Assembly: GCF_002896875.1 (NCBI RefSeq)
Contig: NZ_CP023278.1
Coordinates: 2,728,001 to 2,792,000, forward strand
Source: Nostoc sp. CENA543
Lineage (GTDB): Bacteria; Cyanobacteriota; Cyanobacteriia; Cyanobacteriales; Nostocaceae
Length of the DNA stretch: 64,000 bases
Direction: 5' to 3'
The stretch's first letter is position 1. Every line of letters begins with the position of its first letter. Below, in pieces: positions 4,546 to 58,314 of the stretch. The notes below the pieces were generated by a model. That model did not search any database and was not told the origin of the DNA. It worked only from the letters and a program-made list of their open reading frames with translations. The translations under genes and the position numbers were made by a program.

Positions 4546-4677
4546 ACTCTGGAATGAGGTTGCATGAATTGTTGAGAAATCCAGGGTTACGTCCTCAGCT
4601 TCTATCAAGGCGCAAGTGTTGTGGCTCTTTTTAAATCCCCCTTACAACACGGAAAAAGCGTTAGCGTAGCGGGACTA

Positions 4678-4766: not shown

Positions 4767-4825
4767 AAAGCCTAGGGCATAGCTGCGCTTAGAGCAAAGC
4801 GGGACGTAGCCTATTGCGAATTGGT

Positions 4826-7440: not shown

Positions 7441-7935
7441 TTAAATCATCTCAAACTCCAATTGATGACTTTGCAAAAAGTCATGAGTGAAATGATCTAC
7501 CACATTGGTATCAGCCAATTCTAAGTTATAAAAATCTACAAAATCATGCTCAAAATATGGCCCAGCGTGCCAAGTTCCCGCATTTAACTTAATAAAACAA
7601 TTACCAGGAATGCGAAAAGCGGCAATTTCTGCCAACACTGGCTCAACTAAATCATTATAGGGAGGACAAACAGCCATGAGCCAATCCTTCCCCTCTAGAG
7701 AACCTAAACATTGTGTACACTGCAAATGACGAGTGATTTTATGAAACTTTCGTCCGCGCTTTTGTAGGTGCATAATATAAAAACGCGGTGTGCCATTTTG
7801 TAAGTTTAATTGAGCGTCTTCATTATCAAAAGTTTTACCATCACGACTAGGAAAAATGACTTGCCCATAACGTTGAAAATTCTCTGGGCTAATCCATTGT
7901 GCTTGTAATTTTTCTACTGTTTTTGTTTTATTCAT
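7441..7935 (-). CDS. Ureidoglycolate lyase (AllA) family protein
   Basis: A 164-residue cupin-fold protein. The family pattern is visible: HLQCTQCLGS, a WLMAVCPP strand, AAFRIPGNCFIKLNAGTWH with its metal/substrate His, then FYNLELADTNVVDH. AllA-type enzymes cleave ureidoglycolate to glyoxylate and urea at the end of purine degradation. The gene starts 12 nt after the DoxX-like stop, so the two are probably one operon. No other allantoin-pathway gene is adjacent, so the substrate is inferred from family only. Confidence 0.82.
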   Translation of the reverse strand: MNKTKTVEKLQAQWISPENFQRYGQVIFPSRDGKTFDNEDAQLNLQNGTPRFYIMHLQKRGRKFHKITRHLQCTQCLGSLEGKDWLMAVCPPYNDLVEPVLAEIAAFRIPGNCFIKLNAGTWHAGPYFEHDFVDFYNLELADTNVVDHFTHDFLQSHQLEFEMI

Positions 7936-11257: not shown

Positions 11258-13252
11258 ATGATTCAACCAAAAGCCCTGATATTTCCTGATGTGCTAAGGC
11301 AAATCGGAGGAACCGTTGTTTTGGCGATCGCCTACTATGGGATGGCTGAAATTTCACGCCATCTTGCCTCTACACCCCAAGATGTGACTCCAGTTTGGCC
11401 ACCGGATGGGATTGCATCTGGGGCTGTTTTGTTGTTTGGTAACTGGATGGGGTGGGGTGTGTTGGTGGGTTCATTTCTCGCCAATTTCTGGGCATTCCGA
11501 GATTCAACAAGTTTTTTATCCTTGGTAGTTTCCACCTTACCAGTTATCTTAATTGCGATCGGTACAATGCTAGGGACTCTGTTGGGTGCTGTCTTACTGC
11601 GGAAAACTACCAACTATCGTTATCCCTTAGAACGTGTCAAAGATGTATTCAAATTTTTGCTTTTAACTGGCATGGTGGGGCCAAGTATCAATGCAACTGT
11701 GGGAGTAGCTTCCTTGGCGTTGAGTGGTAAAGTTCCCTGGACAGCATATTGGACAGTTTGGTTAACTTGGTGGATTTCTAATGTTTCGGGAATTTTTATT
11801 GTGACTCCGATTCTGTTGAGTTGGGGACAATTCAGGGAAAAAAATCGACATTCCAACTGGCAATGGTTATCTCTCGGTTCAACATCAGAGGGTGATCTTC
11901 TACAATTCCCCAGCAACTTACAGTTTTTAAGATTCTGGTTAATCGTATTAGAACCAAGTATCCTCATCGGGTTGGTTATTCTTGTGAGCAAAGTTGCTTT
12001 TGGTGAGGGGTATCATCTGGAGTATATGTTGATTCCGATGTTGATTTGGTCTGCCTTTCGACTGGGACAACCAGTTGCCACCCTGTTGACTTTTATTGTG
12101 GCAGCGATCGCTGTCATTGCCACAGTTAATGGCAAAGGTGGTTTTGTGACGGAGGATCTCAATCAATCTTTGCTTTTACTACAATCTTTTATTGGCGTAA
12201 TTACACTCACAATTCTGGTACTGACAGCAACAATTGCAGAACGAATACAAGCACAAACCAAGCTCAGTTTAGCCTTTGCCGAATTAGCTAGAACTAATGA
12301 AACTCTAGAAGTTCGAGTTAACCAAAGAACAGAAGAATTAAATGAAAAGAATACAACCCTGAAGCAAACCCTAGAAACCCTGAAACAAACTCAATTACAA
12401 ATGCTTCATAGTGAAAAAATGTCTGCATTAGGACAGATGGTGGCAGGAATTGCCCATGAAATAAATAATCCGGTGAGTTTTATTCATGGCAACTTAATTT
12501 ATCTTTCTGAGCATATCCAAGGTTTGTTGAGAGCATTGCAAACTTACCAAAAACACTATCCCCACCCACCCGAAACCCTGCATAAAGAATTGGATAAATT
12601 GGAACTTGATTTTTTACAGGAAGATTTAACCAAGATTATTCAGTCCATGAAAATTGGGACTGAGCGCATCCATACTATTGTGTTATCACTGCGTAACTTC
12701 TCGCGCTTAGATGAAGCAGAATGGAAGGCGGTAGATATTCATCAAGGAATTAACAGCACCTTGGTGATTTTACAACATCGATTGCAGGCGACAAGCGATC
12801 GCCCTGAGATTCAGGTAATTAAAGATTATGGTGAGTTACCACCAATTGAATGTGATGCTAGCTCCCTGAATCAAGTGTTTATGAGTCTTTTAAACAACGC
12901 TGTTGACGCTTTAGAAGCATCTAATCAGGGGCGTTTGTTTGATGATATTGTCAACAACATCTGGATTCAGACTCGTCAAATGGACACTAACCAAGTGATG
13001 ATTATGATTTCTGATAATGGTGCAGGCATTCCCGAAGAGATTCGCTCTAAACTATTTGATCCTTTCTTCACTACCAAACCTGTTGGTAAAGGTACAGGCT
13101 TAGGTTTATTTGTCAGCTATCAAATTGTCACCCAGAAGCATAACGGTAATCTTTGGTGTGACTCCACACTAGGACAAGGGACAAAGTTTGTGATTGAAAT
13201 TCCTGTAAAAGCTCAGAGAATTGCGTCAGATGCTTCTCTGAAATCTAAATAA
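11258..13252 (+). CDS. MASE1-domain sensor histidine kinase
   Basis: A 664-residue membrane kinase. The first 320 or so residues have about 8 hydrophobic segments, with [17 protein letters not shown] typical of the MASE1 sensor. A coiled coil (about 335-385, rich in Glu, Thr, Leu, Gln) leads to the HisKA phospho-acceptor [15 protein letters not shown] (His about 399). The HATPase domain shows [17 protein letters not shown] and GKGTGLGL. There is no PAS, GAF or receiver domain and no response-regulator gene next to it, so its partner is elsewhere. The ligand of MASE1 domains is generally unknown. Confidence 0.9.
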
Positions 13253-13321
13253 GAGTTTGATCCGAAAACGCAGGAAGCTGTGCTGTAGAGCATATTAGCA
13301 AATCATCGAACAGTCTATATT

Positions 13322-13669
13322 ATGTTTAACAGATTAACCGTACCCGCACTAATTGCTACTCTCGCTGTTGTACCTATTGTTTCTAGTTGTAGTGCTAATA
13401 AAACGCCCCTAAGTACAGAGCAACAAATTTACACCGGTAATTGGGTGGCTAAGGATGGCACGTTTGTCAAAATTTATCTAGATGGTGGTGGCGACTTCAA
13501 GACTTCCAATAGTTCAGTTACAGGTGGTGCAACAACTTTTACAGATAAAACTCTGACAATTGGTTTAGGCCCGATTAAAAGGGAGTTTCAAATTACTCAG
13601 CCACCTCAAGAAAAAAATGGTGTAGTGACGATGCAGCTTGATGGCATAACTTATACATACCAACAGTAA
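13322..13669 (+). CDS. Small hypothetical lipoprotein
   Basis: 115 residues. A signal peptide with lipobox IVSSC points to a lipid-anchored protein. The mature 90 residues are Gly/Thr-rich and predicted mostly beta, with YTGNWVAKDGTFVKIYLDGGGDF resembling small lipocalin-like folds. I do not recognise the family. It follows the kinase by 70 nt on the same strand and could be cotranscribed. Confidence 0.6.
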   Translation: MFNRLTVPALIATLAVVPIVSSCSANKTPLSTEQQIYTGNWVAKDGTFVKIYLDGGGDFKTSNSSVTGGATTFTDKTLTIGLGPIKREFQITQPPQEKNGVVTMQLDGITYTYQQ

Positions 13670-13697
13670 TTAAATCAATTCGCTGTTAAGTTTTTTC

Positions 13698-13716
13698 ATC
13701 GGGATTTCACCCCGAT
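13698..13716 (+). terminator. Hairpin after the lipoprotein gene
   Basis: ATCGGG and CCCGAT pair over a 7-nt loop, 29 nt past the lipoprotein stop. A T-run lies before rather than after the stem, so it is a weak candidate. Confidence 0.4.
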
Positions 13717-13742
13717 ACAAAACTTGCTAGTTAGCAGCAGTT

Positions 13743-13859
13743 ATGATGAGCGATCGCATCACGGTAATGTACAAGGGTGAGTTTGTAGCGATGTTGGACG
13801 GACAAAGGGCGACGGTTGAGGCTGTTGGGTTTTTGATGGGTGGAGGGAGGGTTAAATAA
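13743..13859 (+). pseudogene. Relic of a second ABC ATPase C-terminus
   Basis: A 38-codon frame (MMSDRITVMYKGEFVAMLDG, then a tail ending FLMGGGRVK) aligns to the last 40 residues of the ATPase at 9685-11145. A 39-nt stretch (13748-13786) matches 11031-11069 with one mismatch; after that the two diverge while keeping the same reading frame and stop position. Nothing upstream of it resembles the rest of the gene. The likely reading is a leftover from duplication or recombination that separated the transporter genes, with the kinase and lipoprotein now in between. Confidence 0.75.
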
Positions 13860-13992
13860 CTTTGGCTGTGTGGGATGAAGTATTATTTTTGCCTCACGCA
13901 TTCGCCGCCAAGCGTTCCGCTTGCGGTAGGCGCAGAGGCGCAACGAGAGAATTTTCATCAAATTTAGTAATTTTTGTCTCAGAAATTCAGCA

Positions 13993-15156
13993 TTACTCAT
14001 TAGGAAAATCACTGTAAGCAATATCCAGAATGTGCGAAGCAAAGTAAATTTTTGGACGTTCCTGTATATCTGACTCTACGAGAATCCCAACATTTACTAG
14101 TCTTTCAAGGTCAGCGCGCGCCGTAGGATAAGATATGTTACACATTTGTGCTAATTGTGGAATGGTGATGGCTGGTGATTCAAACAGGTGATCAATAAGC
14201 CGATTGAGTCTAATGTTTCCATTGGATTGGGAAAGCAACTCCATGTATTGAGTACGGAGGTTGAGCAGCATATCAAAACGCCTGATTGCGTCTCGTGACT
14301 GTTCGATAGTCCCACGCAGACAAAAAGCAATCCAATCTTTCCAGTTTCCTTCTGCACTGACTTCAAACAAGAGATTGACATATTCGTCTTTATACCGATC
14401 AAAAAAGGCACTTAAATATAACCAGGGTTGGCTGAGTTTGCAATGTTCGTAAATCATTAATGAAAGTAATAATCTACCTACCCTACCATTGCCATCAAGA
14501 AACGGATGAATTGCTTCAAACTGATAATGCACCATAAAACATACAATCAAAGAGTCTATATCTTTTTCCTGATGTATGTACTTCTCCAAAGCATCCAAGC
14601 AAGGCATGATTTCGTTGGGAGGTGGCGGAACAAATCGTCTGTCTGAACCGATATGAACTTGAGAACGGCGAAAATTGCCCGGATCTCTTTGGAATCCACG
14701 AACTCCAGATAAAAGTTCTTGATGAATACTTCGGATAAGGTTTAAAGACAGAGGCCTCTCTTCCAATAAATTTAATCCTAGCTCCAATGCTCTGTTATAG
14801 TTCCAAACTTCTTGCCAAGCATTTACAGGATCATCTGCCGAGCGTGGTTCTCTGGGTTCAATCTCAAAAAGTAAAAGTTGTTGGGGTGTAGCATAAGTCC
14901 CTTCTAGACTAGATGAACGCAATGCTTCTCGTCTTTGCAAGGGACGCAACAATAAATTATAGTTTGGCATATATCTGCCAACACCATCCAATCTCGCTAG
15001 TTCCTCACGCGCTTGAACTAGTAACGACCAAATTTCAATAGGCATTTCCCAATTTTCTGGTAAGGGGTTGGGAATAAAAGACCAATCCTTGCTGCCCTCT
15101 ACCGATATCTCCCAAAGTTTTCCTGAACAATTCTCCGTAAAGACCGATTTGTCCAT
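13993..15156 (-). CDS. Fic-domain AMP-transferase-like protein
   Basis: 387 residues. An N-terminal Fic_N region carries the inhibitory motif S-x-x-x-E-G at 81-86, which holds the enzyme off by blocking ATP. The Fic core HPFLDGNGRVGR begins at His217, with all active-site residues intact. The C-terminal 90 residues look like a winged helix (ITIPQLAQMCNISYPTARADLERL). Fic enzymes of this class AMPylate protein targets, or act as toxin or self-regulated modifiers. No separate antitoxin gene is visible, which fits a self-inhibited class II type. The target is unknown. Confidence 0.9.
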   Translation of the reverse strand: MDKSVFTENCSGKLWEISVEGSKDWSFIPNPLPENWEMPIEIWSLLVQAREELARLDGVGRYMPNYNLLLRPLQRREALRSSSLEGTYATPQQLLLFEIEPREPRSADDPVNAWQEVWNYNRALELGLNLLEERPLSLNLIRSIHQELLSGVRGFQRDPGNFRRSQVHIGSDRRFVPPPPNEIMPCLDALEKYIHQEKDIDSLIVCFMVHYQFEAIHPFLDGNGRVGRLLLSLMIYEHCKLSQPWLYLSAFFDRYKDEYVNLLFEVSAEGNWKDWIAFCLRGTIEQSRDAIRRFDMLLNLRTQYMELLSQSNGNIRLNRLIDHLFESPAITIPQLAQMCNISYPTARADLERLVNVGILVESDIQERPKIYFASHILDIAYSDFPNE

Positions 15157-15439
15157 GTCTGATATTTATTTTATAAATAAATTTTAATTGTGATAACTGA
15201 ATTAAAATTTAGGGCATTTTTTTTTAATTCGCAAGATTGAATTAAAGTGTTATATCAGAAATACCCATCTATCCGTTGTGAATTAAAGACTTGAGGTATT
15301 TAAAATTTTTGCTCTAAAAATCTATCTTTACGATCTGATAAGAGGATTATTTAATGACTTAAGTATTTATTCTTTGTAAAAAAGTATATATTTTATTTAG
15401 GATACGGTAAGTACAATTTGTTTAGAAGGTAAATATAAA

Positions 15440-15467
15440 GATGGGTTAAGCAAAACTATAACCCATC
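15440..15467 (-). terminator. Probable alaS terminator
   Basis: GATGGGTTA and TAACCCATC form a 9-bp stem with a 10-nt loop, followed on the minus strand by TTTATATTT, 48 nt past the alaS stop. The rest of the 358-nt spacer 15157-15514 is AT-rich, with no gene seen; it also holds the promoter side of the Fic gene. Confidence 0.6.
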
Positions 15468-43868: not shown

Positions 43869-43943
43869 ACGATACAGATGATGGGGATTGGGGATTGGGG
43901 ACTGGGGATTAGGAGACAAGGTAGACAAGGTAGACAAGGTAGA
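43869..43943. repeat. GGGGATT heptamers and GTAGACAAG nonamers
   Basis: Heptamers GGGGATT/GGGGACT (43879-43911) are followed by three copies of GTAGACAAG. It is a simple-repeat cluster directly before the GACTATT array; the whole spacer 43761-44128 is repeat, with no gene. Confidence 0.7.
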
Positions 43944-43966
43944 GCAGGGGGAGCAGAGGAAGAAAA

Positions 43967-44138
43967 ACTAATGACTAATGACTAATGACTAATGACTAAT
44001 GACTATTGACTATTGACTATTGACTATTGACTATTGACTATTGACTATTGACTATTGACTATTGACTATTGACTATTGACTATTGACTATTGACTATTGA
44101 CTATTGACTATTGACTATTGACTATTGACTATTGACTA
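43967..44138. repeat. Long GACTAAT/GACTATT heptamer array
   Basis: About 24 head-to-tail 7-nt units: first GACTAAT, then about 19 GACTATT. The stop codon and last three codons of the alpha/beta hydrolase gene fall inside the array. Because 7 is not a multiple of 3, the array puts a stop in all frames of both strands within about 21 nt. Confidence 0.9.
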
Positions 44139-45028
44139 CTAACCTTTGACTTCTCCACAAACTCTTCTATCCATTGCAAATATTGCTTTCCTGCTAATTG
44201 TGCTACGTTGTTATGTCCTGCACCTTCAAATAAAATTATTTTTTTGGGTTCTGGTGCAACAGCATATAATTTTTGACTCATAAAAGATGGTACTGTTTCA
44301 TCAGCAGTACCATGAATGAATAAAACTGGCATTTTTAATTGGGGTAGTTTCTGAATAGATTCAAATCGCTGATTTAAAATTAAATCTATCGGGAAAGCAC
44401 GAAACGTATTACGATAATCGATCATTTCTCGGATAGATGTAAATGAGCCTTGAACAATTAAACCTGCGGCTTGGGGTTGTTTGACTGCTAAATCAATTGC
44501 TACTGCACCCCCTAAAGAATGACCATAAATAAAAATATTTTTAGGGTTGATTTTTCTTTGATTTACTAAGTAATTCCAAGCAGTTGCAGCATCTTGATAG
44601 ACGTTCATCTCTTCAGGAAATGCACCTTCACTGCGACCATATCCGCGATAATCAATTAATAGTACCGAAAATCCTAGTTGGTGAAATCTGTTGGCATGAC
44701 CGACGTTAGCACCAATATTTTCACCATTACCATGCAAATATAATAAGACTTGATCATTTTTAGATTTAGCTGGTATCCACCAAGCATGAATACGTTCTAT
44801 ACGTCCTGAATTAGCTGTTACAGGTAGCCACACATCCTCATAGGACAGACTAAACTCTTTCGGTGTAACTTCAATAACATGGGAGGGAAAGAAAATAAAC
44901 CGAGTTTGTTGGCGTGCGAGAAATATACAGATTGTCAAATAAGCGATCGCTGCTACTGCTGTGACTAAAGGTAGCAATTTGAAACACATTTGTAATATAA
45001 GCGGCATTTTTTTAATGATTGTGGACAT
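44129..45028 (-). CDS. Alpha/beta hydrolase (BEM46/YfhR-like)
   Basis: 299 residues. One N-terminal membrane anchor (about 10-38) is followed by an alpha/beta hydrolase fold: HGNGENIG oxyanion loop at 99-106, nucleophile Ser171 in GHSLGG, Asp243 in HGTADE, His272 in GAGHNN. All triad residues are present. Members are membrane-tied serine hydrolases of unknown substrate. The last codons (VSSQ and stop) are made from the heptamer array downstream. It is divergent from a RodZ-like gene. Confidence 0.85.
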   Translation of the reverse strand: MSTIIKKMPLILQMCFKLLPLVTAVAAIAYLTICIFLARQQTRFIFFPSHVIEVTPKEFSLSYEDVWLPVTANSGRIERIHAWWIPAKSKNDQVLLYLHGNGENIGANVGHANRFHQLGFSVLLIDYRGYGRSEGAFPEEMNVYQDAATAWNYLVNQRKINPKNIFIYGHSLGGAVAIDLAVKQPQAAGLIVQGSFTSIREMIDYRNTFRAFPIDLILNQRFESIQKLPQLKMPVLFIHGTADETVPSFMSQKLYAVAPEPKKIILFEGAGHNNVAQLAGKQYLQWIEEFVEKSKVSSQ

Positions 45029-45227: not shown

Positions 45228-46070
45228 ATGACGCTATTAAGTCAAGCACAACAAGAGAAACTACTTGAAATAAGTAGAGATTTACGAAAAATCAGAGAGG
45301 AAAAATCTATACGTCTAGAAGAAGTCGCTATCAAAACCAATATTCGATTAGCATTTCTCAAAGCTTTGGATGCAGGCTATTTTGAAGAATTACCAGAACC
45401 CATATACGTCCAAGGGTTTATCCGTCGTTATGCAGATATTCTGGGGTTAGATGGTAGTGCGATCGCCAATTCGTTTAATGTTAATGCTTCGTCATCTCCA
45501 GAGTCGCCTCAAGATGTCAAACACGAAGATACCAACGTAGACAAAAAGCCTAAAATTCGCATACCTCTTGTTGTCCCTTATGTTGTGTTGATAGGTGTTG
45601 CTTGTACTGGGCTAATTTACATACTTAATCCTAAACTCATAGCTGAATCATCAGCAAGCAAAAAAGGCTCATCATCTACTCAGGTAGAACAAGTCTCCCC
45701 ATCATCTCCAGAATCTCTACCACCAGATCAAACTATCTCTCAAACACCCGCACCCATAACTGCCGCGTCACCGCTTTTGCCTGAAGTTACCAATAATTCC
45801 AATCTGAAAATTACTTTAGAACTCCAAGGCGAATCATGGTTACAAGTCAAAGCAGACGGTAAAACGGAGTTTGTCGGTAATTTAACCAAAGGAGAACGCC
45901 GCACTTGGGTAGCTCAAAAAGAGTTGACTGTGCGTTCTGGTAACGCTGGTGCTGTATTAGTCGCTGTAGATAACCAACCCGCACAACCCCTGGGAGGACA
46001 AGGAGAAGTTAAACAAGTAACATATAATGCGGAGAATAATAGTGAACAGTCAACTGTCAATAGTCAATAG
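45228..46070 (+). CDS. RodZ-type cytoskeletal anchor protein
   Basis: 280 residues in full RodZ order: HTH_25 domain (about 15-75, LEEVAIKTNIRLAFLKALDAG), positively charged linker, one membrane helix (about 114-136), Ser/Pro-rich spacer and the C-terminal DUF4115 beta domain (about 188-270, LELQGESWLQVKADGKTEF). RodZ couples MreB to the wall-making machinery and sets cell shape. The end (STVNSQ and stop) lies within the heptamer array that follows. Confidence 0.82.
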   Translation: MTLLSQAQQEKLLEISRDLRKIREEKSIRLEEVAIKTNIRLAFLKALDAGYFEELPEPIYVQGFIRRYADILGLDGSAIANSFNVNASSSPESPQDVKHEDTNVDKKPKIRIPLVVPYVVLIGVACTGLIYILNPKLIAESSASKKGSSSTQVEQVSPSSPESLPPDQTISQTPAPITAASPLLPEVTNNSNLKITLELQGESWLQVKADGKTEFVGNLTKGERRTWVAQKELTVRSGNAGAVLVAVDNQPAQPLGGQGEVKQVTYNAENNSEQSTVNSQ

Positions 46071-46178
46071 TCAATAGTCATTAGTCAATAGTCATTAGTC
46101 AATAGTCAATAGTCATTAGTCATTAGTCATTAGTCATTAGTCATTAGTCATTAGTCATTAGTTAATAGTCATTAGTCA
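46056..46178. repeat. AGTCAAT/AGTCATT heptamer array, inverted partner
   Basis: About 17 heptamers that are the reverse complement of the array at 43967-44138. The stop codons of the RodZ-like gene (left) and the molybdoenzyme gene (right) both lie in it. Confidence 0.88.
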
Positions 46179-48624: not shown

Positions 48625-48696
48625 GCCAGCATAGCACAGTGGTAGTGCATCCGACTTGTAATCGGAAGGTCGCAGGTTCAAATCCAGCTGCTGGCT
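48625..48696 (+). tRNA. tRNA-Thr (anticodon TGT)
   Basis: 72 nt fold cleanly: acceptor GCCAGCA/TGCTGGC, D-stem GCAC/GTGC, anticodon stem TCCGA/TCGGA with loop CTTGTAA (TGT at 48657-48659), and T-arm GCAGG-TTCAAAT-CCAGC. The T-stem has an A-A mismatch at its middle pair. No CCA is encoded. The 3' half is repeated at 58140-58186 with a perfect T-stem. It is the insertion site of the decayed element that follows. Confidence 0.95.
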
Positions 48697-48716
48697 TTAA
48701 CTAAAAAACGCCGCAC

Positions 48717-48736
48717 AACCCCTAATTGTAGGGGTT
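48717..48736 (+). terminator. tRNA-Thr terminator
   Basis: AACCCCTA-ATTG-TAGGGGTT stem followed by TTCGCTTTTC, 20 nt past the tRNA. A typical factor-independent terminator. Confidence 0.75.
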
Positions 48737-48763
48737 TTCGCTTTTCTTAGCGTACCCATCTTC

Positions 48764-48796
48764 GGAATTTAGCACAATATTATTGTGCTAAATTCC
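48764..48796. repeat. 33-nt near-perfect palindrome before the integrase relic
   Basis: GGAATTTAGCACAATA, one T, then its exact reverse complement. It stands 49 nt before the integrase start and 67 nt after the tRNA, where arm-type or excisionase sites of integrative elements lie. It may also be an operator or terminator. Confidence 0.75.
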
Positions 48797-48844
48797 CTCA
48801 AATTATGCTCAAATACAGAAAAGATTTAGCTCAGGATTAGCGCA

Positions 48845-49396
48845 GTGAAGTGGACTATTGAGGCTGTTAATGAGAGGTTAAAAGCAGGCAAGGTAGGCGT
48901 AAAAGTTGAGCAAAGGGGCGATCTCGCTTATCTCTGAGAGCTACATTTCCACCCAAGCCAGGAAGCGGTAAAGATAAACCCTATCAGCAATATTTGGCAC
49001 TGGGCATCTACGCCAATCCCGCAGGACTGCAACGGGCTGAAGCGGAGGACAAGATAGTTGGTGGGTTGTTGGCTAGAGGGGAATTTGACTGGGCAAGATA
49101 TTTAGGCGAAGAGAAAAAACCGCAGCAGACTTGTGGGCATTGGGTAGAGAAATTTAAGCAGGAATACTTTGCCGCCAACGGGGATTGGTAAAACTAAGGC
49201 AAGAATCGCATTCCCCTTACCTCCTGAGTGGGTGCAAGAGTGGAAGTTATGGGAAAACAAAAAACCCTCCAAAGTGAATGTTGAGGAGGTGACGTGGAAG
49301 GATTTGGGAAACCGAGTTTACAAAGCATTAAAAAGATATGACGTTAGTTTCCCGACTTATGATCTTCGCCATGCTTATGCTATCGGCAATCTCTAG
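48845..49396 (+). pseudogene. Broken tyrosine integrase
   Basis: Pieces of one integrase in shifted frames. The start (GTG) reads VKWTIEAVNERLKAGKVGVKV up to a stop at about 48936. The frame then shifts to RATFPPKPGSGKD and runs through ALGIYANPAGLQRAEAEDKI to a stop at about 49191. A third piece follows a large internal deletion and ends PTYDLRHAYAIGNL, carrying the catalytic R-H motif of box II. The catalytic Tyr and the first Arg box are gone. It cannot make a working enzyme. It lies next to the tRNA 3' end, as integrases of tRNA-targeting elements do. Confidence 0.88.
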
Positions 49397-49503
49397 CACC
49401 ATCTGAGATAGAAACAATATCAAAAGAACTGGAATCAGATTTACTAGAAGAAAAGCCACTTCAGATAAAAATGAATCAGACAAAATATTATAAAATTTAC
49501 TAG
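49393..49503 (+). other. Short open fragment after the integrase relic
   Basis: 36 codons open in another frame from the integrase end (LAPSEIETISKELESDLLEE, ending QTKYYKIY and a stop). It could be the tail of a further lost gene or part of the integrase's own C-terminus. No start codon and no family seen. Confidence 0.35.
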
Positions 49504-49527
49504 TATTTTTTTATAGAGCATAAAAAA

Positions 49528-49563
49528 GGACATCAAATTCTTGTGAATAACGCTTTGATGTCC
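49528..49563 (+). terminator. Hairpin after the integrase region
   Basis: GGACATCAAA and TTTGATGTCC pair over 16 nt. It could end transcripts from either side, as relic genes converge here. Confidence 0.55.
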
Positions 49564-49589
49564 GAAATTAATTTACCGTAATTACCTTG

Positions 49590-49808
49590 TTAATCCAATG
49601 TTCTAAATTGATAAGTTATGCCCCCCATAAGTCGTTTTTGGTCTATCCGTTCTTGGGTTATGATCACGTCTTGGATAGTTGCAGATTTTTGGGGCGTTAT
49701 CTTGATAGTCATTAAGATTTCTTGATTTGGTTTCAAATCAAAAGGTTGGTTAAATCCAAACTTATCTAACTCGATTTTCCAACTTTTTGGAGCATTAAGT
49801 CTTGCAAA
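49590..49808 (-). pseudogene. C-terminal fragment of an unidentified protein
   Basis: 72 open codons on the minus strand with no usable start: an in-frame TAG lies just upstream. It reads FARLNAPKSWKIELDKFGFN, continues QPFDLKPNQEILMTIKITPQ, and ends GGITYQFRTLD. Its alternating hydrophobic pattern resembles the last Ig-like beta domain of secreted bacterial proteins. It is most likely a gene tail left by deletion inside the element. Confidence 0.5.
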
Positions 49809-49894
49809 CTATTAACGTTAAACTTCTCCAAGCGGCCTTGCTAATAAATGGCCATTTTGACTTAATAACTCTGTAGAACAGAGTATCAATTCTC

Positions 49895-51385
49895 CTATGC
49901 GTAGAGGGAGAAATCAGAAGCAATCAGAGAAGGGTTGCCTGTCAGGGTTGCAAAATGTCCACCTGCATCAAGCGTTGCCGCAAAGCCAGAGGCACTGCCG
50001 TTGGGGTTGTAAAAAAGTTTACCGTTAGAGGAGTTGTAAACAATAAAGGCACTGCTTAGTGCAGCAGCAGTATCGCTGTTGACACGCGCAAATTCGCTAC
50101 CTATGCTAAAGCCTGTACCCGCAATACTTCTTAAGGCAGTGAAGGTTCTTTTGCCCAGGCCAATCTTATCTCCTTCGCTCCGGCTAAAATCAGTAATAGT
50201 ATCTATTCCTAGTTCTGAAGCTCGGAATTGCCCAAAGAAGCTACCAAAGAAAAACTCATCCGCCCCTGTCCCTCCTGTTAAAATATCATTGCCGTCCTCT
50301 CCCATAAGCAAATCATTACCTTGACCACCGAAGAGAGAATCATTTCCGTTGCCACCGGCTAAATAATCGTGGCCCGTATCTGAGTCAGGAGCGAAGAGTG
50401 AGGAGAAATCGCCGCCATACAGAGTATCATCACCATCGCCTCCATAAAGAGCATCATTGTCTTGACCCCCAAAGAGAATATCTTGACCAGAACCTCCCAA
50501 AAGACTATCTCTACCTTCTTCGCCAAATAGCCAATCATCTCCACCCCCTCCATGTAAGTAATCGTTTCCAGCACGACCATAAAGAAAATTGTTAGCTGAG
50601 TTTCCTAGAATGTTGTTCGCCAACTCATTGCCAGTTCCATTAATTCGCGCTGTCCCAGTTAGCTCTAATTCTTCCACATGAGCAGGTAAGGTATAGGTAA
50701 TCGAAGAGAAGACCCGATCAAATCCTTGTCCGGCAAATTCAACGACCAAATCCCCACTATTATCAACATAATAAGTGTCGTTGCCTAGGCCTCCTCTCAT
50801 TTCATCTTGTCCTGTGCCACCATCAAGAATATCGTTTCCACTACCCCCGTCTAAGTAATCGTTGCCTCCTTCTCCAAATAGCCAATCATCTCCGTTGCCT
50901 CCATAAAGAAAGTTTCTAGCTGAGTTTCCTCTAATCTGATTTGCCAACTCATTTCCCCTTCCAATCAGTGCTTCTGTCCCAGTTAGCACTAAATTTTCCA
51001 CATGAGCAGGTAAGGTGTAGGTAATCGAAGAGTAGACCAAATCAGTTCCTCCTCCGGCAAATTCAACGACTAAATCCCCACTATTGTCAACATAATAAGT
51101 GTCGTTGCCCGCGCCTCCCCTCATTTCATCTTGTCCTGTGCCACCATCAAGAATATCGTTTCCATTACCCCCGTCTAGATAGTCGTTGTCTCCTTCTCCA
51201 AAAAGTAGATCATCACCGTCGCCTCCATAAAGGGAGTCATCACCATTACGTCCAAACAGGGTATCATTCCCTCCGTAACCATAGAAAATATCTCTGCCAT
51301 CATTAATGCTAATAAAACCGAAGTTTTCAGGGTCTCTACCAACTTTATAGTCAGAGCCGGAAGTTCCATACCAGTAGTTAGGCAT
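49895..51385 (-). CDS. RTX (hemolysin-type) calcium-binding protein
   Basis: About 496 residues from MPNYWYGTSGS; the frame runs 27 residues further upstream but that part is unlike the family. Many GGxGxDxL nonapeptides (for example GGNGDDWLFGEGGNDYLDGG) bind calcium on a beta-roll. A 108-residue unit (GNDTYYVDNSGDLVVEFAG ... LANQIRGN) is present twice in tandem. The end (ITDFSRSEGDKIGLG...) resembles RTX secretion tails recognised by type I systems. No type I exporter is adjacent. It is cargo of the decayed element. Confidence 0.88.
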   Translation of the reverse strand: MPNYWYGTSGSDYKVGRDPENFGFISINDGRDIFYGYGGNDTLFGRNGDDSLYGGDGDDLLFGEGDNDYLDGGNGNDILDGGTGQDEMRGGAGNDTYYVDNSGDLVVEFAGGGTDLVYSSITYTLPAHVENLVLTGTEALIGRGNELANQIRGNSARNFLYGGNGDDWLFGEGGNDYLDGGSGNDILDGGTGQDEMRGGLGNDTYYVDNSGDLVVEFAGQGFDRVFSSITYTLPAHVEELELTGTARINGTGNELANNILGNSANNFLYGRAGNDYLHGGGGDDWLFGEEGRDSLLGGSGQDILFGGQDNDALYGGDGDDTLYGGDFSSLFAPDSDTGHDYLAGGNGNDSLFGGQGNDLLMGEDGNDILTGGTGADEFFFGSFFGQFRASELGIDTITDFSRSEGDKIGLGKRTFTALRSIAGTGFSIGSEFARVNSDTAAALSSAFIVYNSSNGKLFYNPNGSASGFAATLDAGGHFATLTGNPSLIASDFSLYA

Positions 51386-51714
51386 TGCTTTTTCCTCACA
51401 TTTGATGATTCTGAAGTTATTAGAGCTAATTTTTTTCGCTCTCAGTTTCAACAACAGATGAGACAAGCAAAATATTCCGAAACTTGCTCAAAAATTTTTA
51501 CCTGGCATGAAAAAAGTCATCAAAACCTGACTAATAGAACTTTGGCACCCATTCATTCCCCAGTGAGTGCATAAAATTCAATACTCACATCTATATAGCA
51601 AGTGTTTTTAACCTGAAAAATACCAGGTAAATCTGGCACAGGTACAGCAGGGAATAAATGTATTATCTTACAATACATTTTGGTTACATAGTTGGGGGTT
51701 GAGATAATATACTC

Positions 51715-52356
51715 ATGCAGTCACAACCAGTAGCAGAATCGCTTACACCTCTAATAATTGATGCCAAGCATCAAGAGCTAATTACCAAGATTGCTCGTAA
51801 ATATACTAGAGGCAGTTCGGTATCGTGGGAAGATGCAGCACAAACTGCTATGATGAAAGTTTACGAAGCTGTGAAAGCTGGGAAGTTTCATCAGGGGGGA
51901 GTTGCAGAGTTTCAGCGTTGGGCTACAGTGGTGGCGCGATATGAAATTATTAACTTTGTCAAAAAAGAACGTTTGCGTAACCACCACAGCCTAGATGCAA
52001 ACATTTTTGGCACAGATTTATCTTGGGTAGAAACAATTCCTGATGAATCTAACTTGTGGGATGCTGTCACCCGTGCAGATTTAATGAGCAGGGCAAAACA
52101 AGCCATTATTGATCTAGATTCGCATTATAGCGATCGCGGTTATCTGCAATTATGGCAGCTTATGGTTGCAGGCAAAACCCAAACCCAACAAGCGTCTGCA
52201 TTGGGAATTAGTCAAGGAGAAGTTTCCAAGCGTTGGAAGGAATTAGTCGGGCGTGTCGCTATAGAATTAGGGTTACTGGAAGCCGAAGCTGTTAAACATA
52301 CACAACAAAATACTCAACTCAAACATACTCGTAGACGTTCCAAAGCTACATGGTAA
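51715..52356 (+). CDS. Sigma-70-like RNA polymerase factor
   Basis: 213 residues. A region-2-like helix bundle (about 15-80: VSWEDAAQTAMMKVYEAV...FQRWATVVARYEIINFVKKER) is followed by a linker and a region-4-like HTH (about 145-180: MVAGKTQTQQASALGISQGEVSKRWKELV). It is short, like ECF factors. In cyanobacteria such factors are often found beside DUF1822 and CHAT genes, as here: the DUF1822 gene begins 105 nt downstream. It likely directs transcription of the module or of host stress genes; that is inference. Confidence 0.78.
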   Translation: MQSQPVAESLTPLIIDAKHQELITKIARKYTRGSSVSWEDAAQTAMMKVYEAVKAGKFHQGGVAEFQRWATVVARYEIINFVKKERLRNHHSLDANIFGTDLSWVETIPDESNLWDAVTRADLMSRAKQAIIDLDSHYSDRGYLQLWQLMVAGKTQTQQASALGISQGEVSKRWKELVGRVAIELGLLEAEAVKHTQQNTQLKHTRRRSKATW

Positions 52357-52461
52357 GCCTTTTGTTAACTCTTTGAATAAATTTATTATTTGTTGGCATA
52401 GAATAATCTGCTCACTTGTTAACACAATTAACGCTCCTTCTATATTGGGCAATGTCAAACT

Positions 52462-53829
52462 ATGCGTAGAGAATGTGAAAAATCTAAATCTGCTAATATG
52501 CGAAAACCTTTAGCATCACCGCAACCTGGACAAATCTGGGAATTAAGCCGTCAGATACGATATTATGGGGAATTTTATCCAAATGAGTCACATCAACTCT
52601 ACTCCAGCCAGGCTCAAAGCTTTTTACAAGGAAAAACTCCACCCCGCTATGTGATGATTGTGACTGAACCAGAAGCAGAGATTGTTTCTGTAATGGTATT
52701 ATCTGCGGAAACCAATTTTATCTCCAATGTTGATGTACTTATACCCGCAGATATTTCTGGTTCAACACAAGATTTATTAGCTGAAACCTGGCACATACAA
52801 CCGATGCTTGTGGATAATTTATTGCAGCCAATTGGCAAGCGGTTATCTCGTGATATTTATGACAGCTTACTAAGTTTAGGAGATTATTTTCATGGTTTAG
52901 CTAATCAGCAGCCAGAAACTAATTATCTGGAGCAATTGGGGTTAATTTTAGGCGCGAATGAAGCTTTAAAAAGTTCTGAAATATCCCTCTTTCACCAACG
53001 AGAAGCAGCTTGGAGTGATATTTTAACAATACCAGTAGCAGTTTACCACACTTATCTTAAAGGTGTAGAACTGACCAGTCAAATTTTGAAAGAGCAATTA
53101 CAAATAGAGCAAGAGTTAGCAGAATTTGAGTTAAGTCAAAATAATTTACTATCTAAGTTCTTGAATAAAACCCCTACTATTCTTAGTCAGTGGGTACAAC
53201 ATATTTTTGCAACAGAATGGCAGGCTGTTTCTACATTACCAAACTTAGCTCTAGCAACGCGCAGTTCATCAGGTAACTTGCAAAACTTTCCATCAAACCC
53301 CGATGAAATTGCATCACTCATTCAGCAATTATCATTTGTGAATGACGAAACACAACGCCAAAGTGCAATTAAGCAGTTAGGAGAAATTGCTGTCGGTAAT
53401 TCTGAAGCAATTCAAGCTTTGGTAAATCTGTTGCGAAGCACTTCCGATGATGAACTGCTGTGGATAGCTGTAGAAAGTTTACGAAAAATTGACCCAGAAA
53501 ACCCTGCTGCTGGTGTCAAGAGAATGAAATTGATTGATTTAGGTATGGAGATTGCAAGTAAGACAGTAGCTTTGGCTGTAGCTTTTTTACAAAAAATTGA
53601 TGGTGATGTTAGTGTACTTTTGCAAGTTTATCCTACAGGTAATGATGATTATTTACCACCAGATTTAAAACTAATATTGCAAGATGATTCTGGAGAAATA
53701 TGGCGTGAAGTCACCGCTAGACGTGCAGATGTTTGTATCCAACTGAAATTTAGTGGTGAAGTGGGAGAAAGATTTAGTGTACAAATTAGCTTAGGAAATA
53801 CTAATTTTAGTGAAAACTTTGTGATTTAA
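52462..53829 (+). CDS. HEAT-repeat protein with DUF1822 C-terminus
   Basis: 455 residues; a Met at position 13 is an alternative start. Residues 20-230 are mixed, with PQPGQIWELSRQI at the front. Two HEAT-like helix pairs lie at about 285-350 (RQSAIKQLGEIAVGNSEAIQ, then LVNLLRSTSDDELLWIAVES). The last 90 residues (VSVLLQVYPTGNDDYLPPDL ... IQLKFSGEVGERFSVQISLG ... ENFVI) match the end of DUF1822 proteins as I know them. DUF1822 proteins neighbour sigma factors and CHAT proteins in cyanobacteria. Its stop overlaps the stop of the convergent LuxR gene by 3 nt. Confidence 0.75.
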   Translation: MRRECEKSKSANMRKPLASPQPGQIWELSRQIRYYGEFYPNESHQLYSSQAQSFLQGKTPPRYVMIVTEPEAEIVSVMVLSAETNFISNVDVLIPADISGSTQDLLAETWHIQPMLVDNLLQPIGKRLSRDIYDSLLSLGDYFHGLANQQPETNYLEQLGLILGANEALKSSEISLFHQREAAWSDILTIPVAVYHTYLKGVELTSQILKEQLQIEQELAEFELSQNNLLSKFLNKTPTILSQWVQHIFATEWQAVSTLPNLALATRSSSGNLQNFPSNPDEIASLIQQLSFVNDETQRQSAIKQLGEIAVGNSEAIQALVNLLRSTSDDELLWIAVESLRKIDPENPAAGVKRMKLIDLGMEIASKTVALAVAFLQKIDGDVSVLLQVYPTGNDDYLPPDLKLILQDDSGEIWREVTARRADVCIQLKFSGEVGERFSVQISLGNTNFSENFVI

Positions 53830-54956
53830 AAATTGACAATACCTAATTTCTGGAATGCGTACATGACTGCACCAAGGCGAGTTTGAACGCCAAATTTATG
53901 ATAAACATTCTCCAAATGTTTCTTAACTGTACGATGACTGATTGCCAACTGTGTTGCAATTTCATGCGTCGTGCAATCCCTCGCTATCCAAAATAGCACT
54001 TCTGCTTCCCGCTTCGTTAATCCCAGCATTTCTAAAGATGTGAGTGAAAAACTATGAGGCTGAATCTCTACCAACATTAGGTAAACTCGTTCGAGTGTCG
54101 CATGATAATTTAGTGTCACTGTCAATCGACTACCATTATGTTCCAGATAAAGAGGGTGCAAAGGAGAAAAAATTTCGTTTGATTGTATTAGTATAGATAG
54201 TTGCTGATTTACCCATCGTTGCAGGATATCAGGTAGTGCATTTGACAGCTTCGATAGTGGACAATATTTAGCTAGTAATTTTGCTGCCTTTTGGGTGATC
54301 AATTCTATTTGACCGTCAATAGATAAAGCAATTAACCCTACTTGATCGATAGCCTGATTGGTATCGATAAGTTGCTCTTGTACTTGAGCCAATGTAGCAA
54401 TGTTCTGGTATGCTTGTTCTAAGTGTGGACGAATTAAATTTAGAATCAAGCGATCGCGCTCATTGAAGTTTCGGCGATCGCGGCAGATTGATAACATTAA
54501 GTGATTTTGTCCTTGATGAAACCGATCAGCATTCGCTATATAGGGAATCTCAAAGTGAATCCCCATTTGATCTTCCAAGCCAAAGGACTGAAAAAAAGCA
54601 TAAAAAGCTTCTCTGCGTTGAAATTCTGACTCACTCAAAAAATCGGAAATTGCCAGTGCTTGTCTATCCAGTGTTTGGAAATAATATTGTGAAACTGGAT
54701 GAGTCAAAAAATTTTGACGTTGAGATGTAAATGATTCCGCCGCCATACCGACTTCAGGATGGGGGAAGGTATACATCCGGGGTAAGAATGGTGTACCTCG
54801 GATGATGAAACTAGTTATTGCGAATGTTTCTGCACCTACTAACTTTGGTAAAGCCGTGAGTATTTGTATAGGCAATCTATCAATACTGCAAGAAGCATAA
54901 ACCGAGCGCAAAAACAAGATAATTTGCTGCAAATCATTGTCTGACAAAATTTTCAC
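53826..54956 (-). CDS. LuxR-family transcription regulator
   Basis: 376 residues. The N-terminal 240 residues look like a GAF/PAS-type sensing region with no ligand motif I can name. The C-terminal 65 residues are a LuxR HTH: LGLTKREAEVLFWIARDCTT...IATQLAISHRTVKKHLENVYHKFGV. No receiver domain is present, so it is not a classic two-component regulator. It is divergent from the CHAT gene across 122 nt, and a role in controlling that gene is plausible. Confidence 0.85.
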   Translation of the reverse strand: MKILSDNDLQQIILFLRSVYASCSIDRLPIQILTALPKLVGAETFAITSFIIRGTPFLPRMYTFPHPEVGMAAESFTSQRQNFLTHPVSQYYFQTLDRQALAISDFLSESEFQRREAFYAFFQSFGLEDQMGIHFEIPYIANADRFHQGQNHLMLSICRDRRNFNERDRLILNLIRPHLEQAYQNIATLAQVQEQLIDTNQAIDQVGLIALSIDGQIELITQKAAKLLAKYCPLSKLSNALPDILQRWVNQQLSILIQSNEIFSPLHPLYLEHNGSRLTVTLNYHATLERVYLMLVEIQPHSFSLTSLEMLGLTKREAEVLFWIARDCTTHEIATQLAISHRTVKKHLENVYHKFGVQTRLGAVMYAFQKLGIVNF

Positions 54957-55078
54957 AGTGTTTATCAGTAAAAATTAACTATTTTACAATTCACTACGGC
55001 GATCGCCGTATTGTTTTCGTAAAAATATTTTGTCATTCTACTATTCAGTATTCTTCCTAAACATGATCCTACTCACAA

Positions 55079-57853
55079 ATGTTTCCTAACTTTTCTGGCA
55101 AAAATCTTCAAGGTTGTGACTTTAGGGGTCAAAATCTGACAGGTGTAGACTTTAGTAACTCTGACATTCGCGGAGCAAATTTTACTAATGCTATTCTGAA
55201 AAATGCGAATTTTCAAAATGTCAAAGCTGGATTACCTAAAAAGCAATTCTTGGGATTAGTCTTGGTAACATTATTAATAAATATAATTTTAGGATTAGTG
55301 TCAGGATTTGCACCAGTATTTACGGGTTATTTACTTTTTCCATACTCAATTAGTCCAGACAATTTTTTTGCTACTATTGTAGTTTTAAGTATTTTTATAG
55401 TTTTTGCTATTACTACTACTTATAAAGGTTTATCACCTGCGTTTTTTGCTGTTGCTTGCGCTGCTATAATCTGTGGTTTTGTATTGGGAATCATGACCGG
55501 TGAAATTGTCGGTATTCCCTCTGGAATAGTCGGTGTTACCGTCACTACATTGATTATTTATGTCATGTTAGTAATTATGGTATTTCTAGTGACAGTAACT
55601 GAACAAATTGCCGGGATGAATATAGCTATTGTGGCTCTATTTCTCATATTTATAGATAGTATTATTGGAGCTATAACTGGTACGATAATTGGTGTTGAAG
55701 TTGCTAAAGTATTGTCAGGAACTAACAGGCTGCCAAACTTAAAAGTGCAAGCAGTTCAAGAAGCTGCGATCGCAGCTACAGTTGGTAGTGTTGCTGTAAT
55801 ATTATTCGTGAGTTATATCAGTTGGCGAGTCCGTGCTGGGGATGAAAAGTTTGTCTGGATAAGAAAACTAGCTATTGCTGTCTCTAGCATCGGTGGAACA
55901 AGCTTTCATCAAGCAGACTTAACTGATGCTGATTTTACTTCTGCCAAGCTAAAAAATGTTAACTTTAGCAACGCCAAACTCATTCGTACTAATTTTCATT
56001 TAGCGAATTATCTTTCTTTAGCCAGAGTAGATAACACTATTTTAGTCAATCCAATAGTTCAAGATTTAGCTGTTACTAAAAGAGGTACTAATAAATCTTA
56101 TATCGGCTGTAACCTCAAAGGTATTAATCTAGATTATGCTGACCTGAGTTATGCTGATTTAAGCGAAGTAGATATGAGTAACTCTACTTTAGACTGTGCT
56201 AATTTAGAAGGTGCAAATCTGACGAAAACTCAAGCATTAGGTACAAACTTTCACCAAGCGACTTTAACAGCAGCTTGTTTAGAAGCATGGAATATTGACA
56301 GTACAACTCAACTTGATGGGGTAATTTGTCAATACGTTTATCTTTTAAATAACCAACAAGAACGTCGTCCCAGTAGTGGAGAATTTGCTGCTGGAGAATT
56401 TACTAAACTCTTTCGAGTAGTTATCAATACTGTTGATTTGATTTTTCGTAATGGGTTAGATTTAGAAGCTTTATCTGCGGCTTTGTCGAAAGTAAAAATA
56501 GAGAATGAAGGTATTCCTTTAGCTATTAAAAGTATTGAAAATCAGGGTGACGGTGTGGTAATCGTACGCGTAGATGTACCAGAATCGACAGATAAAGCGA
56601 AAATCCACGCTTCAGTTACTCACAATTATGAATTAGCTCTCCAGCAGATAGAAGCAAGATATCAAGCCGAATTAAAAAGTAAAGATGAACAAATTAGTCT
56701 TTATCGCCAACATCAAGCGGATTTAAAAGAATTAATTCAAATTATAGCTCCCACCGCCAAGAAATCCACCCAGGAAAAGCTAGTAATTTTAAAATTGGGT
56801 CAAGGGGATTTAAGTACAGGATTCCCAGTTATAGTACAAATTAGTAGAGAAGGCGATCGCCCATATTTTGAATCTCATGCACAATTACCGTCAGCCTCCG
56901 AATTAGTTTTAGCATACTATAAATGGCAAGCTGCATATTTCCATAGCTTACAAGGAAGTTTGCGAATCAAGTTTCCAGAAACACAAGTTACCAATATTAG
57001 TCGGCGAGAATTATTTAAAGAATGCGATAAATTAGCAGATAATTTGAAAAAACAAGTAAATTTATGGTTAAACTCAGAACTATTTCGTCCTATTAAAGAG
57101 CAACTCCTAGAAAAACTAGATCCGTCAGAATCTATTCGGATACTTCTACAAACAGAAGATAGCCAGTTACGGCGGATACCCTTGCAGATTTGGGATTTTT
57201 TTGAACGCTATCCTCATGCTGAAATGGCTCTTTCTTCAACTACTTATGAGAGAAAAGAAAAGTCTATTTCCTCAAAACCCCATGTCAGCATATTAGCGGT
57301 ATTGGGAGATAGCACTGGTATTAATATTCAACAAGACAAAGTTTTACTTGAACAATTACCTCATGCAGAAATCAAGTTTTTAGTAGAACCACAACGCCTG
57401 ATGCTCAATGATGAACTTTGGATGCAACCTTGGGATATTTTATTTTTTGCTGGTCACAGCTTTACTCAAGCTGAACGAGAAATTGGTCATTTTCACATCA
57501 ATGACTCTGATAGTTTAACTATTGCCGAGTTAAAAAATGCTTTGACGAAAGCTATTGAACGAGGTTTACAATTAGCAATTTTTAACTCCTGCGATGGTTT
57601 GGGATTAGCTACTAATTTAGCGGATTTACATATTCCGCAAATGATTGTTATGCGCGAACCAGTACCTGACAAAGTAGCACAGGAGTTTTTGAAGAATTTC
57701 CTTGCAGAATTTTCTAGTAGTAAACCTTTATATCAATCAGTACGTGAGGCACGTTTGAAACTACAAGGTTTGGAGGATGAGTTTCCTTTTGCAAGTTGGC
57801 TGCCTATAATCTGCCAAAACCCAGCAGAAATTCCTTTTAAATGGCATTTTTAA
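55079..57853 (+). CDS. Pentapeptide-repeat, membrane, CHAT-protease fusion
   Basis: 924 residues in four parts. Pentapeptide repeats (about 5-50, NLQGCDFRGQNLTGVDFSN) are followed by six or so membrane helices (about 58-265). A second pentapeptide block (about 275-420) follows, with a coiled linker. A C-terminal CHAT caspase-like protease domain has its catalytic pair at His793 (FFAGHSF) and Cys838 (FNSCDGLG). CHAT proteases cut target proteins, often as effectors in cell-suicide or conflict systems. Here it is tied to the membrane. It completes the sigma/DUF1822/CHAT set in the element. Confidence 0.85.
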   Translation: MFPNFSGKNLQGCDFRGQNLTGVDFSNSDIRGANFTNAILKNANFQNVKAGLPKKQFLGLVLVTLLINIILGLVSGFAPVFTGYLLFPYSISPDNFFATIVVLSIFIVFAITTTYKGLSPAFFAVACAAIICGFVLGIMTGEIVGIPSGIVGVTVTTLIIYVMLVIMVFLVTVTEQIAGMNIAIVALFLIFIDSIIGAITGTIIGVEVAKVLSGTNRLPNLKVQAVQEAAIAATVGSVAVILFVSYISWRVRAGDEKFVWIRKLAIAVSSIGGTSFHQADLTDADFTSAKLKNVNFSNAKLIRTNFHLANYLSLARVDNTILVNPIVQDLAVTKRGTNKSYIGCNLKGINLDYADLSYADLSEVDMSNSTLDCANLEGANLTKTQALGTNFHQATLTAACLEAWNIDSTTQLDGVICQYVYLLNNQQERRPSSGEFAAGEFTKLFRVVINTVDLIFRNGLDLEALSAALSKVKIENEGIPLAIKSIENQGDGVVIVRVDVPESTDKAKIHASVTHNYELALQQIEARYQAELKSKDEQISLYRQHQADLKELIQIIAPTAKKSTQEKLVILKLGQGDLSTGFPVIVQISREGDRPYFESHAQLPSASELVLAYYKWQAAYFHSLQGSLRIKFPETQVTNISRRELFKECDKLADNLKKQVNLWLNSELFRPIKEQLLEKLDPSESIRILLQTEDSQLRRIPLQIWDFFERYPHAEMALSSTTYERKEKSISSKPHVSILAVLGDSTGINIQQDKVLLEQLPHAEIKFLVEPQRLMLNDELWMQPWDILFFAGHSFTQAEREIGHFHINDSDSLTIAELKNALTKAIERGLQLAIFNSCDGLGLATNLADLHIPQMIVMREPVPDKVAQEFLKNFLAEFSSSKPLYQSVREARLKLQGLEDEFPFASWLPIICQNPAEIPFKWHF

Positions 57854-58139
57854 GCAATTATTTTTTAGTTATTTTACTATACTAGTTAGGTCGTTTCTAT
57901 TGGTAAACAAACCCCAGTTTGACAACCTACCTCCTATCAAGCTTATCCCTGTTGTGTCACTATCGCGGTAGTATAGGGATGTCAAAACCTCAAAACGAAG
58001 ACACAGAGTACGGTAGAGGCGTTCGTGCAGCGTCACACGACGAAAAAATTTTCCAAGAACCAATTAGCTCAAAATTAGCACTATGATTTTTACTAATTCC
58101 CTCCCACTTGATGGATTCTGCTTTTTGCCTTTCATTCTC

Positions 58140-58186
58140 TCCGACTTGTAATCGGAAGGTCGTCGGTTCAAATCCGACTGCTGGCT
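58140..58186 (+). pseudogene. tRNA-Thr 3' half: right attachment site of the element
   Basis: 47 nt copying tRNA-Thr from the anticodon stem to the discriminator base, offset from the intact gene by exactly 9,490 nt. The first 23 nt (58140-58162) are identical, then GGTTCAAATCC and CTGCTGGCTTTA also match. The differences are two pairs of changes in the T-stem. Here the stem GTCGG/CCGAC is perfect. No 5' half is present, so it is not a gene. Confidence 0.9.
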
Positions 58187-58314
58187 TTATTGTACAGTTG
58201 TTGTACATTATTCAAGAAACGACATTTAATGTGTGAATGTACAGCTGTACCTCGCTTGAGTTGGCAAGGAGCAAGTACGCACTAAAAGGCTACGTAATTA
58301 CTAAATAATGAACT

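Follow-up and report, generated by a model that had tools for sequence, protein, structure and literature searches.

The closest described counterparts of the locus discussed here are the islands that integrate into transfer RNA (tRNA) genes, as treated in the Islander work of Hudson, Lau and Williams (PMC4383910). In the parts of that account drawn on here, an island-carried fragment restores the tRNA gene, the 3' fragment that it displaces is found, in unchanged orientation, at the opposite end of the island, the integrase gene adjoins the tRNA gene and anticodon-centred sites form one of the classes tallied. A second body of work, also drawn on in part, concerns predicted conflict systems, amongst them gene neighbourhoods that combine an extracytoplasmic function (ECF) sigma factor, a DUF1822 protein and a caspase-domain protein (eLife 2021, PMC8195603). 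Here we analyse a 64-kb stretch of the genome of Nostoc sp. CENA543 (G000:C1:2728001-2792000, hereafter the window, G000 being the window's own genome) with likenesses to both. The segment running from the anticodon loop of a tRNA-Thr(TGT) gene to a tRNA fragment that ends at position 58188 is, we are confident, an integrative element, now decayed, that belongs to a prophage-type family. It has two attachment-type repeats, both element ends and a wrecked integrase gene; a sister genome lacks it at this tRNA, and in a relative the same tRNA gene holds a complete prophage that shares its ends and integrase. As genomic islands go, the case is clear but of an ordinary kind. No account of a tRNA-Thr element in Nostoc was recognised amongst the titles and opening lines of abstracts consulted.

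The tRNA-Thr(TGT) is the sole tRNA detected by ARAGORN in the window. A direct repeat of 49 nt (45/49 identical, exact over the first 23 nt) links it to a displaced fragment of its 3' half on the same strand, the copies lying 9,490 nt apart, an arrangement of the kind sought in tRNA-targeted islands (same orientation, 2-200 kb). Identity begins at the anticodon arm, which the 23-nt exact core covers, and all four mismatches fall in the T-stem, where the tRNA reads GCAGG...CCAGC (with one A-A mismatch) and the fragment GTCGG...CCGAC. An earlier reading of this DNA, made from the sequence only, had described a 47-nt copy at this distance with a 23-nt identical core over the anticodon arm, and differs from our measurement by two bases of length. 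At 16 of the 20 loci of relatives that were compared, the 3' half of the resident tRNA-Thr and the fragment agree in every base over 48-50 nt. Of three matches to the tRNA query in G000, one, the third, belongs to a tRNA-Thr whose anticodon is CGT; the gene considered here is therefore probably the only tRNA-Thr(UGU) of this genome. The locus thus appears to share with the Islander islands a restored tRNA gene, an equally oriented 3' fragment displaced to the far end, an anticodon-centred site and an adjoining integrase gene (PMC4383910, as far as consulted).

Directly after the tRNA lie the remains of that integrase gene. Compared with the intact 360-amino acid integrase of Nostoc sp. FACHB-110 (G202, NZ_JACJRU010000009.1), residues 1-26 are found at 48845-48922, residues 27-113 in another frame at 48925-49185 and residues 247-312 at 49187-49384, the aligned pieces being 82-86% identical. 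The frame change and the two missing parts (residues 114-246 and 313-360) mark this as a decayed island rather than an active one, in agreement with the sequence-only reading, which had seen a dead integrase here. Its further statement that the island is now immobile holds for the element's own integrase only. Tyr 340 of the FACHB-110 protein, which we take to be the candidate active-site tyrosine, falls in a missing part.

Several observations bear on what the intact relatives of this integrase are. The PHROGs integrase family phrog_1 is matched in five of eight members, and a profile of the intact relatives matches an XerC-like chain (E 5e-4). A predicted model (mean pLDDT 76, pTM 0.49) has lambda integrase as its top Foldseek match (E 2.9e-5, TM-score 0.43). 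Five residues, R225, K248, R307, H331 and Y340, presumably the catalytic residues of a tyrosine recombinase, are invariant in all eight family members. Predicted fold and invariant residues together point to the intact relatives being tyrosine recombinases. A profile scan of genome contigs found at least 10 loci of the family, two of them remnants of about 30 residues, in part from genomes that also belong to our G set (G202 is L174, and L182 has the same sequence as G022). Amongst the matches listed, a tRNA gene lies no more than 300 nt upstream of the integrase match at 10/10 loci, tRNA-Thr(TGT) at five and tRNA-Val(TAC) at five. At the tRNA-Val(TAC) loci L176-L179 and L181, similar inverted-repeat and arm-like sequences precede the integrase gene. 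Intact integrase genes adjoin tRNA-Thr in G027, where the contig then ends, in G030 and in G202. Viral contigs yielded one relative (39% identity, no tRNA on the locus) and no match to the tRNA 3'-half pattern, and the integrase has no match among phage records.

The ends provide a link to prophages. In FACHB-110, 60 kb separate tRNA-Thr from its 3' fragment, and the element between them encodes major head, portal, terminase large subunit and tape-measure proteins. In G030 the distance is 89 kb, and tape measure, terminase, portal, major head and endolysin genes lie in between. The left end of the window element (146 nt outside the tRNA) aligns with the FACHB-110 end at a score of 101 (maximum 30 in 1000 shuffles) and the right end (120 nt outside the tRNA) at 49 (maximum 28), so that at each end none of 1000 shuffles was as good. 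Homologous ends and integrase place the window element in the FACHB-110 prophage family. The two elements have in common the tRNA-Thr, the integrase family, both ends and the variant T-arm of the tRNA; they differ in that the prophage retains its structural genes over 60 kb and has no match to the window cargo. Near the ends, the repeat TTAGCTCARRATTAGCRCW at 48826-48844 and 58064-58082 gives the best two of four window matches at up to 5 mismatches, candidate arm-type integrase sites.

The sister genome, G012, is 94.7% identical to G000 at the DNA level over the 2.5 kb left of the element. Across 57 kb compared in G012, nothing of 60 nt or more from 48711-58260 aligns near the tRNA, and a search of the whole genome returned only cargo paralogues at up to 76% (with five first-look candidates scored per genome this absence is weak). 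There, CAAGAAACGGCATTTAAT starts 3 nt after the tRNA; CAAGAAACGRCATTTAAT, searched with one mismatch allowed, has a single occurrence in each of G000 and G012, in G000 beginning 25 nt past the fragment. The element therefore seems to be missing in G012 between flanks that look the same. A short flank in G010 also resembles the left flank of the window, but is too short to read.

Table. Features of the tRNA-Thr element and its immediate surroundings (window coordinates)
Feature	Position	Strand	Evidence
tRNA-Thr(TGT), most simply chimeric (5' part host, 3' part element-borne), T-arm GCAGG/CCAGC	48625..48696	+	ARAGORN; T-arm unlike 10/13 genomes of the genus
attL-side repeat: anticodon arm TCCGA-CTTGTAA-TCGGA, then tRNA 3' half	48650..48698	+	45/49 identical to 58140-58188
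Inverted repeat ATTTAGCACAATATTATTGTGCTAAAT, left end of element	48767..48793	.	Sequence; aligned with FACHB-110 left end
Candidate left arm-type integrase site TTAGCTCAGGATTAGCGCA	48826..48844	+	Motif scan; alignment
Integrase remnant, shifted in frame past residue 26 and lacking residues 114-246 and 313-360, the candidate active-site Tyr with them	48845..49384	+	tblastn with FACHB-110 integrase as query
Short open stretch, about 70 residues, debris between integrase remnant and RTX gene	49592..49808	-	Six-frame reading
523-amino acid RTX-repeat protein, cargo	49895..51466	-	Pfam PF00353, 5.7e-73
Sigma-70-region-2 (ECF-like) protein, cargo	51715..52356	+	Pfam PF04542; dN/dS 0.12-0.18
DUF1822 protein, cargo	52462..53829	+	Pfam PF08852, 2.8e-36; dN/dS 0.25-0.29
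LuxR-type regulator between DUF1822 and CHAT genes	53826..54956	-	Pfam PF00196; not so placed in G030, G229
924-amino acid pentapeptide/CHAT (caspase-like) protein with hydrophobic stretch, cargo	55079..57853	+	Pfam PF00805, PF12770; dN/dS 0.21-0.26
Candidate right arm-type integrase site TTAGCTCAAAATTAGCACT	58064..58082	+	Motif scan; within stretch matching FACHB-110 right end
attR-side repeat: most simply the native tRNA-Thr 3' half, displaced, T-arm GTCGG/CCGAC	58140..58188	+	45/49 identical to 48650-48698
Scar resembling a Tn7-like transposon end of the V-K CRISPR-associated transposon (CAST) type, TGTACATTCACACATTAAATGTCG...	58213..58243	-	23/24 first nt match the end beside the G008 tRNA-Thr

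Between the ends lie five cargo genes. The sigma, DUF1822, LuxR and CHAT genes are open along the full length of their homologues, as the sequence-only reading had it in calling the cargo intact, and look selected: with RTX excluded, the ratio of non-synonymous to synonymous substitution (dN/dS) is 0.12-0.29 over 13 pairwise comparisons, although these span long branches and are no proof of selection since integration. A second sigma/DUF1822/CHAT module lies at 3.43 Mb of the same genome (G000:C1:3432719-3438003); its DNA is 77-81% identical and its CHAT gene matches the window copy at both ends, not in a middle stretch. Relatives of the DUF1822 protein are found on 18 plasmid records and of the CHAT protein on 96, most of them from cyanobacteria and with less than 80% of the query covered in every case, and one plasmid record has DUF1822-type and CHAT-type genes side by side on opposite strands. 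PADLOC returned no match at E 1e-5 for the sigma, DUF1822 and CHAT proteins. We take the CHAT domain to belong to the caspase superfamily. As in the conflict neighbourhoods described in the consulted parts of PMC8195603, Pfam places a sigma factor, a DUF1822 protein and a caspase-superfamily protein with pentapeptide parts side by side in the window; unlike in those systems, the caspase-like domain is C-terminal and a LuxR gene is interposed. The sigma/DUF1822/CHAT module with LuxR and RTX is probably a conflict system of this predicted kind, triggered by stress or by invaders, that would repay the cost of keeping it.

Like the long branches just mentioned, a number of other observations weigh against the segment being a decayed prophage-type element. 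Pfam PF00589 falls below its cut-off in all four intact integrase relatives (one at 18.8 bits against 27.1, three without match). In this, as in its dead integrase, the element departs from the Islander islands (PMC4383910, as far as consulted), and an Islander-type filter requiring a PF00589 integrase might therefore miss the element. The arm motif was derived from the very sequences scanned, and so is a lead for arm-type sites rather than a test of them. The site in G012 is not clean, its tRNA carrying the variant, that is to say the element-borne, T-arm. The flank motif is of a transposon-end type and forms with one mismatch occur elsewhere in G003 (two) and G008 (three), so that similar ends may have inserted twice, independently. 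No phage structural gene was found in the cargo proteins scanned with PHROGs (RTX, DUF1822 and CHAT) and Pfam; in PHROGs, RTX and DUF1822 match no families and CHAT matches seven, all of unknown function. (Nor do the cargo proteins scanned with Pfam include a relaxase or type IV secretion family such as would indicate an integrative and conjugative element.) The cargo has no match in the complete elements of G202 and G030, nor was it found in those stretches of other family members that were retrieved. Finally, the DUF1822 and CHAT genes are adjacent in G030 and G229, which suggests that the LuxR gene was most simply added to a sigma/DUF1822/CHAT module. That neighbour search scored two first-look candidates per genome, so its absences, too, are weak.

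The absence of the cargo from those elements, the added LuxR gene and the paralogous module at 3.43 Mb speak for a composite history, in which all but the ends of a prophage-type element was lost and the sigma/DUF1822/CHAT module, LuxR and RTX came in later by other routes, as passengers of a dead element. Against this, no transposase was seen among the cargo open reading frames scanned, GC content varies across the cargo with no clear boundary (RTX 0.448, CHAT 0.359, window 0.403) and accessory genes are in any case carried by prophages. We regard such a composite as a serious possibility, whilst leaning a little away from it. The sequence-only statement that everything between tRNA and fragment is one acquired island thus stands for the att-type bounds and for the absence at the tRNA in G012; unity of the cargo with the element is unproven, since the cargo was not found in the elements of relatives.

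Which of the two T-arms is native can be approached from their distribution. The T-arm type of the fragment is present in 10 of the 13 genomes of the genus, the variant of the window tRNA in G000, G012 and G004 only. Family-wide, the variant occurs in 21/217 genomes, and in nine of the 11 genomes of genus g69, to which FACHB-110 belongs. A tree of the conserved upstream gene (21/30 sources, nine being without match, and two rows being one sequence) groups G000 with G012 (support 100/100) and places G004 elsewhere; the variant label requires two changes on it, as few being seen in 40/500 label shuffles, and the nearest neighbours of the G000/G012 pair, G010 and G001, have the common T-arm. This distribution and the tree make the fragment most simply the displaced host half, the present 3' half of the tRNA having arrived with the element, so that the tRNA which the sequence-only reading called intact would have a foreign 3' half, with the variant T-arm. 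The opposite polarity would have the variant T-arm native, strand exchange in the last 11 nt, the common-T-arm fragment element-borne and G012 never occupied, which accommodates the variant T-arm of G012 and its lack of an element at the tRNA. The prevalence of the common T-arm in the genus, G010 and G001 included, and the start of repeat identity at the anticodon arm tell against it, and we consider it unlikely.

If the fragment is indeed the displaced host half, the element-borne T-arm of G012 points to recombination within the final 11-12 nt of the repeat as the way in which an element was lost there. The history would then run as follows. A lambda-like tyrosine recombinase would have engaged arm-type sites at the two ends, with strand exchange in the anticodon loop. 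The host 3' half would thereby have ended up on the far side of the element (attR), and the tRNA would have been completed by a 3' half from the element, with a T-arm that is common in another genus of the family. Integration would have preceded the split of G000 and G012. The G000 element may then have lost its phage structural genes and much of its integrase whilst keeping host-type genes, and G012 the whole element in the manner described, keeping the foreign T-arm. On this account the locus offers a precisely bounded case of a prophage-type element eroded to two ends with host-type genes persisting, as well as an example of a tRNA gene retaining a foreign half. It also ties an integrase family at tRNA-Thr and tRNA-Val, below the Pfam cut-off in four relatives, to complete cyanobacterial prophages.

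More tentatively, T-arm variants of Nostocaceae tRNA-Thr(UGU) might be lasting footprints of mobile elements in general, each integration swapping in a foreign 3' half that is kept after the element is lost, as in G012 and perhaps G004. Were this so, one half of an essential tRNA gene would be subject to horizontal transfer, and the T-arm type would tell of earlier occupants of a site that tyrosine-integrase prophages (within the tRNA) and V-K CASTs (immediately beyond it) have in common. In G004 (L158/L034), a tRNA-Thr with the variant T-arm has no integrase match within 16 kb downstream, a possible footprint of a lost element.

To the right of the fragment comes the transposon-end-like scar, then a rearrangement junction. 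In G008, a Cas12k gene lies 1.3 kb downstream of the tRNA-Thr whose adjoining end matches the scar. A CAST-type end following the fragment, with Cas12k genes near tRNA-Thr at two of 20 loci (G007 and G008), raises the question of whether the fragment might be a tRNA-targeting guide or by-product of a Tn7-like CAST rather than an attachment site. We think this very improbable: its 49-nt match to a native tRNA is too long for a spacer, spacers being shorter than this, the stretch upstream of it matches the prophage right end and the scar motif also follows a whole tRNA in G012. No CRISPR repeat was seen by eye before the fragment, no dedicated search having been made.

The outer end of the scar points to the HxlR gene, which the sequence-only reading took for the native right neighbour, predicting empty sites in which the tRNA runs into it. 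This proved wrong. The match of the HxlR block to G012 begins at 58261, and in G012 HxlR lies about 32 kb from tRNA-Thr behind another gene, presumably holA; in relatives with HxlR and tRNA-Thr on one contig the two are at least 140 kb apart where their places were compared. On the left, the 3 kb before tRNA-Thr are common to 16 of 21 compared loci, G000 and G012 not being amongst them, and the conserved upstream gene is about 173 kb from tRNA-Thr in G000 and on another contig in G012. RecA was considered as this gene and rejected: recA is upstream in G027, and a different gene, which we take to be ornithine carbamoyltransferase-like with a lexA-like gene beyond, adjoins the tRNA elsewhere. 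The locus is therefore rearranged on both sides, the element's own ends being unaffected.

Other insertions are seen at the same tRNA gene. V-K CAST Cas12k genes lie 1.3-1.4 kb downstream of tRNA-Thr(TGT) on L037 (G007; 12358-14256) and L038 (G008; 13068-14999), and in several relatives similar transposon-end sequences begin within about 40 nt of tRNA-Thr. A scan of 10 chosen proteins identified defence-type genes downstream of the tRNA (DarG, a reverse transcriptase, HmaC, a type I restriction enzyme and SspD), the loci being L034 (G004) 4635-7197, L038 8194-11523, L043 (G013) 12245-15457 and L039 (G009) 6894-7694. The tRNA-Thr site looks like a defence hotspot, and the presence of CAST or defence-type genes in several relatives makes it a useful one to survey. 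To the left of the tRNA, the window itself contains short tandem repeats with a 7-nt step at 43880-44150 and 46030-46170.

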